Under the pieces are notes generated by a model, which did no database searches, was not told the DNA's origin, and saw nothing but the letters and a program-made list of their open reading frames with translations. 36,073 bases of DNA from Ruminococcus sp. Lineage in GTDB: Bacteria > Bacillota > Clostridia > Oscillospirales > Ruminococcaceae. The stretch lies in the NCBI GenBank assembly GCA_023665505.1, contig JAMPDU010000015.1, positions 1 to 36,073 of the forward strand. The letters are read 5' to 3'. Both the position numbers and the translations under genes were made by a program. Positions 24,917 to 30,237 of this stretch are shown here, in pieces; the stretch's first letter is position 1; each line of letters opens with the position of its first letter.

Positions 24917-24945
24917 TTGACATTTGTAAAAAGGTGTGGTATAAT
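24917..24945 (+). promoter_or_regulatory. Promoter of ExbB/ExbD-like operon
   Basis: TTGACA (24917-24922) and TATAAT (24940-24945), both perfect, 17-bp spacer. Expected transcription start near 24952. Confidence 0.88.
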
Positions 24946-24971
24946 GTTTGTGGGAGGAGGGCGGCAAAAAC

Positions 24972-25451
24972 GTGTTTAAAATTTTGGGCGGAAATTTTTT
25001 TAAGTACGACTGGATAATTTATGTTTGGGTAATTTTAACAGCCGTCCTTTTCGCGCTGACAATAAAAGCAAGCGGCAGTTTCGGCGGCTACCTTGACAGG
25101 GACTTTGAAAGCTCCGTCTGCAAAAGCGAGGAGCTGCAAAAACGGCACAAGGAGCAGGAAATAACCTACGCGCTGTATTTGAATTTCGTTTCGGCTTTCC
25201 CTCTTTTGGGAATGATAGGCACGGTTTACTCGCTGCTTAAGTTAGACCTTTCAGGCGGCACTGAGCTTATATCGGGAAATTTCCTCGTCGCTCTCACGTC
25301 AACGCTTTTGGGAGCGTTTTTCGGGCTGATTTTTAAGGTGCTGGACAGCTTTTTAAGTCCCAAAATAGAGGAAAACAACGAGCTTTACCTCATAAGAATA
25401 AAGGACAAAAAGCAAGCCGCGGAAATGGGTGACGACGATGAGAAAGCCTAA
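24972..25451 (+). CDS. MotA/TolQ/ExbB-like proton channel subunit
   Basis: A 159-residue membrane protein with the MotA/TolQ/ExbB pattern. Three membrane helices are visible: WIIYVWVILTAVLFALTI (about 13-30), YLNFVSAFPLLGMIGTVYSL (about 88-107) and LVALTSTLLGAFFGLIFKVL (about 122-141). The last two match the ExbB core, GLLGTV and the TxxGL segment. A charged cytoplasmic loop lies between helices 1 and 2. It would form a proton-driven stator with the ExbD-like partner that overlaps its 3' end. A GTG at 24948 lies before the expected transcription start, so the GTG at 24972 with AGGAGG upstream was chosen. Such pairs are normally found in two-membrane bacteria. Confidence 0.8.
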   Translation: MFKILGGNFFKYDWIIYVWVILTAVLFALTIKASGSFGGYLDRDFESSVCKSEELQKRHKEQEITYALYLNFVSAFPLLGMIGTVYSLLKLDLSGGTELISGNFLVALTSTLLGAFFGLIFKVLDSFLSPKIEENNELYLIRIKDKKQAAEMGDDDEKA

Positions 25452-26025
25452 AATATCCCTCGATTTCACCTCGCTGCTGGATATTACAATGATAATACTG
25501 TTCGCTTTTTTGGTAAGTTTTAAGTTTTCGGCGGACGAAACCCAAGCCCGCGCAGAGGCGGAAATCGAGAAAGCAAACGCCGCCGCGGAACAGCTTGAAA
25601 CGGACAGAAAGCGGTTCGAGGAGGAAAAAGAGGAGTGGCAAAAGCAAGCCGAAAAGGAGCTTGAACAGCTCCGAAAAGCGGACAAAAACGCCGCAGACAA
25701 CGCCGAGGCGCTTTTGAATTTTCAAAACGGAGCGGTTTTTAAAATAGATTTGGAAATGCAAAGCCGAAGTAATTGGGAAATAACGGTATATAACGGCGAA
25801 ACTCCAATTGCCGAAATTCTTTCGGAAAATTCCGAAAACCTCGGCGGGGAAATCGTCACGGTTTTGGATAGCCAAGGCTTTCAAAGAGACGACGTGCTTA
25901 TCGGGATTTTCCTCTACGACCCCGAGGATATAGGCTCGGCAACGGTCAGGGAGGATTTCTCACCGAAAATAAAGGACGTAAGCGGCGCGTATGAAAATTT
26001 TTACTGCGCCGAGGTTAGAAAATAA
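25438..26025 (+). CDS. ExbD/TolR/MotB-like subunit with coiled coil
   Basis: A 195-residue protein with one N-terminal membrane helix, LDFTSLLDITMIILFAFLVS (about 8-27). The Asp in SLLD sits where ExbD/TolR and MotB carry their proton-binding Asp. A highly charged coiled coil follows (about 34-85, many Glu, Lys and Ala), then an extracellular domain (about 90-195) that I do not recognise. The gene overlaps the ExbB-like gene by 14 nt, so the two are almost surely translated together. A GTG at 25429 would add three residues. The layout recalls MotB or ZorB more than plain ExbD, but no OmpA-type peptidoglycan-binding motif is visible. Confidence 0.72.
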   Translation: MRKPKISLDFTSLLDITMIILFAFLVSFKFSADETQARAEAEIEKANAAAEQLETDRKRFEEEKEEWQKQAEKELEQLRKADKNAADNAEALLNFQNGAVFKIDLEMQSRSNWEITVYNGETPIAEILSENSENLGGEIVTVLDSQGFQRDDVLIGIFLYDPEDIGSATVREDFSPKIKDVSGAYENFYCAEVRK

Positions 26026-26047
26026 ATTAAAAATATGGAGGTAAAAA

Positions 26048-26452
26048 ATGGCAAAGGAAAAAAAGAAAAGCGGCGGAAAAATTCTGCTTGTGGTTGTGTT
26101 ATTGGTAATTATTGTATTGGTAATTATTTACTTTTTCGGCAACGGTTTCGGTTTCGGCAAAGGAGGCGGCGACGCAGTCCCCGCGGACGTAACGGTTTCC
26201 GAAACGACGGAGGAAACAACCGCCTTGCAGGAAACCCTTTTCGCGGAAGTCACCGTGGACGGGGAGGAGTACCTCTATAACAACCAATCCCGCGCGCTGG
26301 ACGAGCTTATTACAGAAATTACCAAAACAGAGGGCGAAATCGAGGTACATATCTTACTCAGCGACACCGCAACCCTTGCCGCCCGAGAGGCTTTGGAAAC
26401 CCGTCTTGACGAGGAAAACATACCCCACTCCATAGTTGAGTACGCCGAATAA
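26048..26452 (+). CDS. Single-span protein with ExbD/TolR-like outer domain
   Basis: A 134-residue protein with a basic N-terminus, one membrane helix (ILLVVVLLVIIVLVIIYFF, about 12-30), a Gly-rich then Thr/Glu-rich linker (about 31-65) and a compact C-terminal domain (about 66-134). That domain reads VTVDGEEYLYNNQSRALDEL, then EVHILLSDTATLAAREALET and a short Ile/Val strand, which follows the strand-helix pattern of the ExbD/TolR periplasmic domain. The membrane Asp of ExbD is absent. AGGAGG-like GGAGG precedes the ATG at 26048, 22 nt after the previous gene. It may be a second, non-conducting partner of the stator-like pair. Confidence 0.65.
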   Translation: MAKEKKKSGGKILLVVVLLVIIVLVIIYFFGNGFGFGKGGGDAVPADVTVSETTEETTALQETLFAEVTVDGEEYLYNNQSRALDELITEITKTEGEIEVHILLSDTATLAAREALETRLDEENIPHSIVEYAE

Positions 26453-26477
26453 TTTCCCCAAAGTTATAGTATCCTGC

Positions 26478-26541
26478 CCGCCCCCTTGAGGGGGCTTTTT
26501 TTGTAAAGGTCTGTAACACGCAGCTTGGGGGTGACACTGGC
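26478..26541 (+). repeat. Dispersed repeat with terminator hairpin, copy Y
   Basis: GCCCCC-TTGA-GGGGGC (26481-26496) and seven T residues form a good terminator for the ExbB/ExbD-like operon. The downstream blocks GTAAAGGTCTG and TTGGGGGTGACAC match the element at 4906-4971, so the terminator seems to be part of a mobile or duplicated intergenic element. Confidence 0.7.
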
Positions 26542-26620: not shown

Positions 26621-26649
26621 TTGACGAAAAATCACGGAAATGATATAAT
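26621..26649 (+). promoter_or_regulatory. Promoter of MBOAT-DHHW operon
   Basis: TTGACG (26621-26626) and TATAAT (26644-26649), 17-bp spacer. The leader of about 88 nt contains an AAAACCGGTTTT palindrome. Confidence 0.82.
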
Positions 26650-26700: not shown

Positions 26701-26746
26701 GAAAGGAGAGCGTCCCCGCCACGGGTACGCAAAATGACAAAAAATG
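26701..26746 (+). promoter_or_regulatory. Shine-Dalgarno, hairpin, start arrangement of MBOAT gene
   Basis: GAAAGGAGA (26701-26709) is 35 nt before the ATG at 26744. Between them GCGT-C-CCC and GGG-T-ACGC (26710-26730) can fold into a hairpin with one mismatch. The arrangement parallels the glgD leader. An out-of-frame ATG at 26734 opens a 68-codon frame that overlaps the gene. Confidence 0.5.
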
Positions 26747-28342
26747 GTATTTGCCGATCTGCTTTTCATATACGTGTTCCTGCCCGCGGTGATAATTTTC
26801 TACCTCATCGCCCGGGGCTGCGACTCCATACTCGCCAGACAGCGGCGCAGAAACCGCAGGCTGGGCATTATGTTCAACGAGCACCCCGTTATGAACATCG
26901 GTTTAATGGCGGTTGCGCTGATATTTTACGTCTTGGGTAAGCCCGCCGTGTCGGCGGTTATGCTTGCCCTTATTCTGCTGTACTCCTTCGGCGCGGAGGT
27001 CAACGAGAACCCCTTCGCAAACGCCGTGCTTATCATTTTTTCCCTGATTTTTTACGCCTGGGGCGAGCCTATGTACATCGTCCTCATGCTGGTCAGCGTG
27101 ATGATAAATTACGTTATCGGGCTTATGATAGACCGCGGCAGCACGCGCTCCAAACCCGCGCTGATACTGGGCGTGGCGCTGAATATCGCCATGATATGCG
27201 TGTTTAAGTACTCGGGGTTTATCGTGACAAACCTCAACGCCCTTGGCTTTAACCTCGAAGTACCCCAAATCGACCTGCCTATCGGCATAAGTTTTTACAC
27301 GTTCCAGTCTCTGTCTTATTTGGCGGACGTTTACAACGGCAGGGTCTCGGGTCAGCGCAGTATGTCGGGACTTCTCCTGTACATTTCCATGTTTCCCCAG
27401 CTTATCGCCGGACCTATCGTCCGCTACACCACAGTTTCCGAGGAAATAAATACCCGTGGCATCTCCCTTTCCGACGTTTCCGAGGGCTCTTTCCGCTTTT
27501 TGGTGGGACTTGGCAAAAAGGTAATTCTTGCCAATCAGCTTTCCGTCCTCAGCGAACGCTTTTTGGACAGCGACTTAAACACCCTCTCCATGTCGGGGGC
27601 TTGGATAGGAATAATTGCCTTTACTTTCCAAATATATTTCGACTTTTCGGGGTACTCCGACATGGCTATCGGTTTGGGACGCTGTTTCGGCTTTGAGTTT
27701 GACGAAAATTTCCACTACCCCTACGTCAGCGCGACGATTACCGACTTTTGGCGCAGGTGGCACATCTCCATGGGGTCGTTTTTCCGCGATTACGTCTACA
27801 TTCCTCTGGGGGGAAACCGCCGTCACCAGCCGCTGAACATTATGATAGTTTGGTTTCTCACCGGTCTTTGGCACGGCGCAAGCTGGAATTTCGTGCTTTG
27901 GGGACTTTACTTCGGCGTGATACTGATAATCGAGAAGTACACCGTCGTCAAAGCAATGAAAAACGGGAAAAAATTGCCAATGCCCCTAATGCACGTCTAC
28001 AGCATGGCTTTGATAATATTCGGTTGGGTAATTTTCTATTTTGAGGACTTCGGCAGGCTGGGGGGCTTTGTCAAGGTGCTTTTCGGCGCGGGGGCTGCTC
28101 CAAAGTGGGACATCATAACCCGGGGCGAGCTTACGGGAAACCTTTACCTGCTGATAGCCGCGCTGATATGCAGTCTGCCCGTGGGCGAGCTTATCGAGGA
28201 CTTTTACAACAAGTCCATGGCAAAGGGCGGAGCAGCGCCGCTTACCGTCTGCAAATCGGTGTGCGCCGTTGCGCTGCTTGCGGTAAGTACCCTGCTGCTT
28301 ATCGGGGACACCAACAATCCGTTCCTGTACTTCCGTTTCTAA
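26744..28342 (+). CDS. MBOAT-family membrane O-acyltransferase (AlgI/DltB-like)
   Basis: A 532-residue polytopic membrane protein of the MBOAT family, close to AlgI, PatA and DltB, which pass acyl groups across the membrane for transfer to surface polymers. The start MVFADLLFIYVFLPAVI is the family's usual N-terminus. Diagnostic segments are PIGISFYTFQSLSY, MFPQLIAGPIVRY, FDFSGYSDMAIGLG, FWRRWHIS (His340) and TGLWHGASW, whose His377 is the expected catalytic residue. About ten membrane helices are present. The next gene encodes a DHHW protein, the usual partner of AlgI-type enzymes, so the pair likely O-acetylates an exported or wall polysaccharide. DltA/B/C/D genes are not present. Confidence 0.93.
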   Translation: MVFADLLFIYVFLPAVIIFYLIARGCDSILARQRRRNRRLGIMFNEHPVMNIGLMAVALIFYVLGKPAVSAVMLALILLYSFGAEVNENPFANAVLIIFSLIFYAWGEPMYIVLMLVSVMINYVIGLMIDRGSTRSKPALILGVALNIAMICVFKYSGFIVTNLNALGFNLEVPQIDLPIGISFYTFQSLSYLADVYNGRVSGQRSMSGLLLYISMFPQLIAGPIVRYTTVSEEINTRGISLSDVSEGSFRFLVGLGKKVILANQLSVLSERFLDSDLNTLSMSGAWIGIIAFTFQIYFDFSGYSDMAIGLGRCFGFEFDENFHYPYVSATITDFWRRWHISMGSFFRDYVYIPLGGNRRHQPLNIMIVWFLTGLWHGASWNFVLWGLYFGVILIIEKYTVVKAMKNGKKLPMPLMHVYSMALIIFGWVIFYFEDFGRLGGFVKVLFGAGAAPKWDIITRGELTGNLYLLIAALICSLPVGELIEDFYNKSMAKGGAAPLTVCKSVCAVALLAVSTLLLIGDTNNPFLYFRF

Positions 28343-28416
28343 ACGGGGGCGGGGTCGCCCCGCTGCCAAAAAATAACATTGCGATATAAATCCGTGAGAG
28401 GAGTGCAAAATAAATT

Positions 28417-30237
28417 ATGTCGATGAATTTAAAAATTAACCGTTACGATACAAAAAAAGAAAAACGCCGCAAGGTTTCCGACGTGATTTATGTGGTAATA
28501 ACCATGACGCTTTTCGCCGCGGTGGGGGCGGCTATGCTTATTTTCCCCCGCAGCACCGAGTCGGAGCTTGAAAAGCGGGAGCTTGCCAAATTCCCGAAAT
28601 TTTCTTTGGAAACATTTGTCAGCGGCGAGTTCACAAACTCCCTCAACACCTATTTCAGCGATACGGTGCCATATCGGGACGATTTAATGGTAGTATCTTC
28701 CATGATAAGGAACATGACGGGTTTCCGCATGAACGACATAAAGCTCCACAACGTGACGATTGCCGAGGCTACCCAAACAGAGCCGTCCGTTACCGAGGAA
28801 ATTGCAAATTTTGTCACCGACGCGCCTATGGAAGAGGTTGAGCAGTTCTCTTTCAACGCTCAGACCACCGTTACCGAAAGCGACGGCATGGTTCAAGAGC
28901 CTTTTTCCGAGATAACCACCGCCGAAAACGGGGAGGACGGAGACGGTATCGACATGGACGATACGGTAAGTATTACCAATAACGGCATAGCCGTGGTTGG
29001 AACACGTGCGCTCATGCTGTACGGCGGAAGTTATACTGTGGGTGAAAATTACGCAAAAGTTATCAGCGAGTATAAAAAACAGCTGGGGAACAGCGTAAAC
29101 GTCTATTGCATGGTAATTCCCACATCGGTGGAGTTTTACTGCCCAGACAGCATTAAGGAGTTTACCTCGGAACAGTTGGGAAATATTAACAATATTTACT
29201 CAAATCTGCAAAACGGCGTAAAGCCCGTGGACGCGTACACAACCCTAAGCCTTCATACCTCCGAGCCGATTTATTTCCGCACCGACCACCACTGGTCGTC
29301 TCTCGGTGCGTACTACGCCGCAAAGCAGTTTGCCGAAACCGCGGAAGTGCCTTTCGCCGACCTGTCCGCCTATGACGAAAAAGTGGTGGAAGGCTATGTG
29401 GGCACGATGTACGGCTACACTCAGGACATCGTTATCAAAAACAACCCCGAGGATTTCGTGTACTACGTGCCGAAAGATGTGGAGTACACCACAACCTACT
29501 ACAACTATATTCTCGGCGAAAACAACCGTATCACGGGCATGCAGGAGCCTTACGACGCCAACTTTTTTGTGGATTTCTCCAAAAATAAGTCTATGCTGTA
29601 CGGCACGTTTATGGGCGGCGACGCCAAAATTACCCACGTGAAAACGTCCACCCGAAACGGCAGAAAGCTCGCCATTTTCAAGGACAGCTACGGCAACGCC
29701 CTGCCCCAGTTCCTGTTCGGCTCTTTCGAGGAAATTTACGTGTTCGACATGCGGTTTTTCACCTACAACGCCGTCGACTACATCAAGCAGCACGGCATAA
29801 CCGACCTGCTTTTCGCGAATAACGCGTTCCACGCAACCACAAAGTCCACCGTGACTTATTACAACAGCTTTCTCACTCAGGGCAGAGCCGCGGAAACAAC
29901 GACTACAGCCACAACCACCGCTCCCGTCGTGGTTCAGGGAATTCCGCCGCGGTCGGACACCACCCCGCCTATACCCGCTGTAACAGCCGCGCCGGTGACC
30001 GTACCGCCGCAAACGACGGTTACAACGACAGTTCCCACCGCCGCGCCCGTTACCACCACATCCAAGCCGCGGACGGAGACTTCGCCGACTTCTAAAACCA
30101 CGGCAAAGTCAACCGCGAGTACCTCGCCGACTTCCAAAACAACGGCTGGGCAAACTACCGCAAAACCCGAAACCACATCGAAAAAGCCCGCCGAAACCAC
30201 AACTCCCGCAAGCGCCGAGGAGGAGATAATTTCCTAA
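28417..30237 (+). CDS. DHHW (AlgX/AlgJ-like) exported protein with Thr-rich tail
   Basis: A 606-residue protein anchored by one N-terminal membrane helix (about 23-44). The extracellular domain has the DHHW motif (residues 290-293 in FRTDHHWSSLGAYYA) and KDSYGN with Ser424, the two signature regions of AlgX/AlgJ-type SGNH-like acetyltransferases; Ser, Asp and His could form the catalytic triad. A Glu/Thr-rich insertion lies at about 110-185. The last 110 residues are almost wholly Thr, Pro, Ser, Ala and Lys, a likely wall-spanning or glycosylated stalk. AGAGGAG lies 13 nt before the ATG at 28417. With the upstream MBOAT protein it forms an acyl-transfer pair. Confidence 0.9.
   Translation: MSMNLKINRYDTKKEKRRKVSDVIYVVITMTLFAAVGAAMLIFPRSTESELEKRELAKFPKFSLETFVSGEFTNSLNTYFSDTVPYRDDLMVVSSMIRNMTGFRMNDIKLHNVTIAEATQTEPSVTEEIANFVTDAPMEEVEQFSFNAQTTVTESDGMVQEPFSEITTAENGEDGDGIDMDDTVSITNNGIAVVGTRALMLYGGSYTVGENYAKVISEYKKQLGNSVNVYCMVIPTSVEFYCPDSIKEFTSEQLGNINNIYSNLQNGVKPVDAYTTLSLHTSEPIYFRTDHHWSSLGAYYAAKQFAETAEVPFADLSAYDEKVVEGYVGTMYGYTQDIVIKNNPEDFVYYVPKDVEYTTTYYNYILGENNRITGMQEPYDANFFVDFSKNKSMLYGTFMGGDAKITHVKTSTRNGRKLAIFKDSYGNALPQFLFGSFEEIYVFDMRFFTYNAVDYIKQHGITDLLFANNAFHATTKSTVTYYNSFLTQGRAAETTTTATTTAPVVVQGIPPRSDTTPPIPAVTAAPVTVPPQTTVTTTVPTAAPVTTTSKPRTETSPTSKTTAKSTASTSPTSKTTAGQTTAKPETTSKKPAETTTPASAEEEIIS

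Follow-up and report, generated by a model that had tools for sequence, protein, structure and literature searches.

A three-gene operon with ExbB- and ExbD-type components in monoderm Ruminococcus: a candidate ion-driven motor with a divided ExbD

Ion-driven motors of the Exb/Tol type are used by bacteria with two membranes to work on the outer membrane. In one review ExbBD is treated as a Gram-negative property, and the AglRQS motor is described as carrying a membrane aspartate in both AglQ and AglS (PMC9389320). In the PVC group, TolQ is found with paired heterologous TolR genes and a vWA transducer, while the Ton genes of monoderm Clostridia are regarded as likely to be non-functional (PMC12204202). 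Non-flagellar homologues have been grouped as generic ion transporters of diverse kinds, the function of many being unknown (PMC12505986). Here, a three-gene set with ExbB- and ExbD-type components is described from a 36,073-nt stretch of Ruminococcus sp. DNA, the whole of which is referred to below as the window. No description of this set was found in the open-access literature searched, an absence that is not in itself proof.

Three plus-strand genes are tightly spaced between window positions 24972 and 26452. They are preceded on the same strand by a promoter-like site of perfect sigma-70 type (24917–24945; TTGACA-17 nt-TATAAT, with a TG before the −10 element and 12/12 consensus matches) and followed by an intrinsic terminator, also on the plus strand (26480–26503), in which a hairpin of six GC pairs (stem 26480–26495) leads into a run of seven T residues. 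For gene 1 (24972–25451, 159 amino acids) the best start is the GTG at 24972, which is preceded by GGAGGAGG; the list of open reading frames had chosen a TTG. Gene 1 overlaps gene 2 (25438–26025, 195 amino acids, ATG start) by 14 nt, and gene 3 (26048–26452, 134 amino acids, ATG start) has its own GGAGG. Perfect TTGACA-TATAAT promoters with a spacing of 16 to 18 nt occur five times in the 36-kb window (at 1914, 8962, 9265, 14133 and 24917), where shuffling gives an expectation of 0. Upstream of the operon lies glgA, as identified by Pfam. Downstream, past the terminator and a second promoter (26621–26649), are genes for an MBOAT acyltransferase and a DHHW/AlgX-like protein (26744–30237), likely a pair for the O-acetylation of surface polysaccharide. 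Because the terminator and second promoter intervene, and because the pair is shared with only one other genome of the genus, in which it lies directly behind the operon, it was not counted as part of the operon, and a functional link to it was rejected.

The product of gene 1 is a minimal ExbB/MotA-type protein. It matches the Pfam family MotA_ExbB (PF01618) with an E-value of 4.2e-7 (30.2 bits, where the cut-off is 22.9); in each of 20 additional carriers tested the match to this family likewise exceeded the cut-off, with E-values of approximately 1e-13 to 5e-7. Three membrane spans are predicted (residues ∼9–27, 67–85 and 99–117). The channel threonines T84 and T111, located in the last two spans, are invariant in 31/31 homologues, a sample that extends to amino-acid identities of only ∼20–30%, and the same is true of F76, P77, G80, G83, L88, A107, G114 and K122. 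Both threonines align with those of the flagellar MotA of the same genome (motifs GMIGT and TT) and of ExbB proteins from other Bacillota (LLGT and TT). In a rough tree that included a few MotA and ExbB proteins, the gene 1 proteins formed one clade apart from them (support 0.93). By its sequence, protein 1 possesses the core of an ExbB/MotA protein, including the two channel threonines.

Protein 2 is predicted to consist of an ExbD/TolR-type membrane helix, a long coiled coil and an alpha/beta domain (residues ∼101–194). The window copy matches the Pfam ExbD family (PF02472) over residues 3–56 with an E-value of 1.8e-3 and 18.8 bits, which is below the cut-off of 25.4; the profile is matched by 21 of 24 diverse homologues at a threshold of E ≤ 0.1, the best value being 6e-6. 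The helix contains the motif T-x-L-L-D-x5-L, in which T11, L14, D15 and L21 are present in 34/34 copies and L13 in 33. A profile search aligned this N-terminal region with the membrane helices of TolR and ExbD at insignificant E-values, and sequence searches of the PDB returned no significant match for either protein 2 or protein 3. AlphaFold2 (mean pLDDT 76) predicts a single helix from residue 11 to residue 96, followed by a beta-beta-beta-alpha-beta-alpha-beta domain; the helix would continue for ∼70 residues past the membrane, or ∼10 nm if straight. As judged from its primary structure, protein 2 has an ExbD/TolR membrane helix with an ion-binding aspartate. When its outer domain was compared with the PDB by Foldseek, weak uS11/RNase H-like matches and no ExbD were obtained, and hhalign detected no relation to the domain of protein 3 (0.4%). 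The idea that this outer domain is a second ExbD domain, unsupported by either comparison, was set aside. No OmpA-like domain was found in protein 2 with Pfam.

Protein 3 comprises a basic N-terminus, one very hydrophobic span, a Gly-rich GFGFG stretch, a disordered linker rich in Ser, Thr and Glu, and a domain at residues ∼64–130. In 34/34 copies the predicted span is free of Asp and Glu, and also of His, so that the SHLS/His motif of TonB and TolA is absent. Within the Gly-rich stretch, G35 is present in 32/34 and G37 in 30/34 copies. The outer domain is compact and predicted by AlphaFold2 with a pLDDT of ∼90. A Foldseek search of this domain against 350,542 PDB chains placed ExbD periplasmic domains at each of ranks 1–5, with E-values of 3e-3 to 2.4e-2, a probability of 1.00 and TMt scores of 0.60 for the top match and 0.72–0.75 for the other four. 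A weak ExbD sequence match was also seen in 6 of 23 protein 3 members (best 9e-4). Protein 3 also matched pilins and FliL, but only through its N-terminal membrane helix, and these matches were discounted. In the predicted structure, protein 3 is an ExbD-type outer domain on an anchor helix that lacks the aspartate. With the Asp helix on protein 2 and the outer domain on protein 3, the two halves of ExbD are therefore apparently split over two proteins.

Together, these data uphold the structural part of what had been proposed in the initial annotation. The tight operon with its perfect promoter and terminator is confirmed by coordinates, consensus match and hairpin; the ExbB/TolQ-like channel protein by its family match, three spans and invariant threonines; the TolR/MotB-like protein with a membrane aspartate and a coiled coil by D15, the ExbD matches and the modelled helix; and the second single-span protein with an ExbD-like outer domain is supported by a fold search made blind. 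The assignment of both ExbB and ExbD membrane signatures stands in full for gene 1, and for gene 2 it stands through the homologues, as the window copy scores below the cut-off.

Some loci carry additional genes for exported proteins. On inspection of the sequences, extra exported proteins with a C-terminal domain resembling that of protein 3 were seen at L071, L093, L081 and L084, two of them with a lipobox-like Cys. The fourth gene encodes a lipoprotein at L071, where it follows gene 3, and at L093 (532–966, minus strand), and a small exported protein at L081 (9954–10379). Protein 3 itself occurs in a two-span version at L081 and L084.

The initial annotation implied that the three genes should stay together in related genomes, and they do so. 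All three are present in 13 of the 21 genomes of the genus, none of which holds an incomplete set of one or two genes; named carriers include metagenome-assembled genomes of Ruminococcus sp. and the cultured R. flavefaciens ATCC 19208. Many further genera of the family carry the set, and the protein 2 profile matches 19 of 199 family genomes (∼10% of the family sample). At the 18 family loci outside the genus, gene 3 lies downstream in 18/18 and gene 1 directly upstream in 17/18, the genes usually overlapping by 4 nt or lying <50 nt apart; in the one exception gene 1 is kept on the same contig, ∼16 kb away. Beyond the family, the profile matches 3 of 391 genomes of the class and 5 of 399 of the phylum (own genome counted); some of these matches are ordinary ExbD proteins in ExbB-ExbD-TonB sets, and the three-gene set itself was encountered twice in other families (L085 and L093). 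The set is not due to chance, since it was found again in more than 30 genomes. Among the three proteins, pairwise distances are correlated (r 0.73–0.87; 0 of 2000 permutations), which mostly reflects shared ancestry, as is expected for co-inheritance. The patchy presence of the set suggests an accessory function.

When all neighbours within 9 kb were clustered, nothing but the three genes recurred across clades. In one subclade (L022, L023, L020 and L028) a CAP-domain secreted protein and a Listeria-Bacteroides repeat protein are encoded beside the operon, as is a FecR-domain protein in L022 and L023; a link to such surface proteins, confined as they are to this subclade, was not adopted as a general one. 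In another subclade (L069, L075, L076 and L078) a calcineurin-like phosphoesterase is encoded near the operon; two of these loci, L069 and L075, have a patatin-like phospholipase gene directly 3′ of it.

With no obvious load gene nearby, the operon might encode an ion channel or sensor and not a motor, one that gates an ion leak under envelope stress or phage attack, as ZorAB may, and that bears no mechanical load. The patchy distribution is in keeping with this, as is the weak similarity to ZorB (5.5e-4) that protein 2 shows along its membrane helix and coil. However, PADLOC identified only GlgB on the operon flanks, with neither a Zorya effector nor one of another defence system, protein 1 was not matched by ZorA, and no relatives of the operon were found on viral contigs; moreover, an ExbD-type outer domain and a long stalk suggest contact with something outside. 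A Zorya or other defence island was rejected on the first and last of these genomic grounds and on the weakness of the ZorB match, and the wider channel or sensor explanation is considered unlikely.

The initial annotation had noted an absence of flagellar genes. This holds for the window and not for the genome, in which a separate flagellar motA-motB pair was found on another contig. With flagellar genes in the host, and with MotA/PomA as the best PDB matches of the gene 1 profile (1e-3), an auxiliary or alternative flagellar stator could be envisaged. However, at least 12 carriers lack any other MotA_ExbB gene, and four genomes of the genus have MotA without the operon. As both situations exist, the operon and flagellar MotAB occur independently of each other. 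Protein 1, at only 159 residues, also has no torque-interface domain, and protein 2 has no OmpA domain. A flagellar stator was rejected on the genomic distribution, which largely refutes it, and is the least probable of the explanations considered here.

That the host is monoderm, as had been supposed, is borne out by the failure to find Omp85 in its genome (98.1% complete); in a control, the same search matched 7 of 14 genomes. Canonical ExbB-ExbD-TonB-like operons were observed in other families of Bacillota (L089, L091 and L092), and in two of them, L091 and L092, the TonB-like gene is followed by that for one and the same additional exported protein. It could be argued from these sets, from the monoderm host and from component types that are those of Ton and Tol that the operon is a functionless vestige of a Ton/Tol system, inherited from an ancestor with two membranes or acquired by transfer, and comparable to the Ton genes of monoderm Clostridia (PMC12204202). 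Against this, more than 30 diverged copies all retain the catalytic residues without change and have intact reading frames, the operon order is tight, the gene 1 clade is separate from local ExbB and MotA, and protein 3 lacks the TonB His helix. A vestige is thus very unlikely.

The reading that is favoured, and which we consider reasonably probable, is that the operon encodes a 5:2 motor driven by protons (or another cation) in a monoderm cytoplasmic membrane, with the axle and the ExbD domain on separate proteins. The ion-path residues of the 5:2 motor family are established from sequence in proteins 1 and 2. By analogy with MotAB, ExbBD and TolQR, the complex would consist of a protein 1 pentamer around a protein 2 dimer, and ion flow past Asp15 would turn or tug this dimer. 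With less confidence, the coiled coil of protein 2 may transmit this motion to the gap beneath the wall, while protein 3 may remain on its tether at the surface of the membrane and might, as a guess, be a partner, clutch or force transducer. In diderms, that role is taken by TonB or TolA acting with the ExbD domain. A component of the wall or surface is probably the load of the motor.

A broader reading is put forward tentatively, at somewhat less than even confidence, namely that monoderm Clostridia have a distinct class of ion motor of their own, represented by this operon. The axle of such a motor, made up of the Asp helix and a stalk of ∼10 nm, would be separate from the ExbD-type domain, mechanical work would be done on the wall or surface, and the domain would be held by a helix or, in some genomes, by a lipoprotein as well. 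If this were true, Exb/Tol-type motors would not be outer-membrane devices only. A conserved, intact and flagellum-independent motor operon in monoderms, the cultured Ruminococcus flavefaciens included, would make a motor beneath a thick wall open to experiment, and an ExbD divided into an axle protein and a domain protein would offer a natural dissection of the role of each half.

Overall, the operon resembles several described systems in part. With flagellar MotAB it shares the MotA_ExbB core and the Asp helix, but it has no torque-interface domain, plug or OmpA domain and is not linked to a flagellum. ZorAB likewise has a MotA/MotB-type pair, and its ZorB is the protein that protein 2 weakly matches; unlike ZorAB, the operon is without a ZorC/D/E effector, an OmpA-type domain or a long ZorA tail. 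The TolQ/TolR sets of the PVC group also contain a single TolQ-like gene and a pair of TolR-like genes that differ from each other, whereas here there is no vWA or TPR gene and the second TolR-like protein has no Asp. In the Myxococcus gliding motor AglRQS, too, one TolQ-like and two TolR-like proteins make up each set, but protein 3 lacks the membrane aspartate and outer-membrane Glt partners are not expected. ExbB-ExbD-TonB has a TonB SHLS/His helix and a TonB C-terminal domain that are missing here, and no TonB-dependent transporter was seen near the operon. In common with ExbB-ExbD-TonB, the operon specifies a three-span ExbB-type subunit with both channel threonines, an Asp helix and an ExbD-type outer domain; in contrast to that system, its host is monoderm, protein 2 has a long coiled coil, and the Asp helix and the ExbD-type domain are carried by different proteins.
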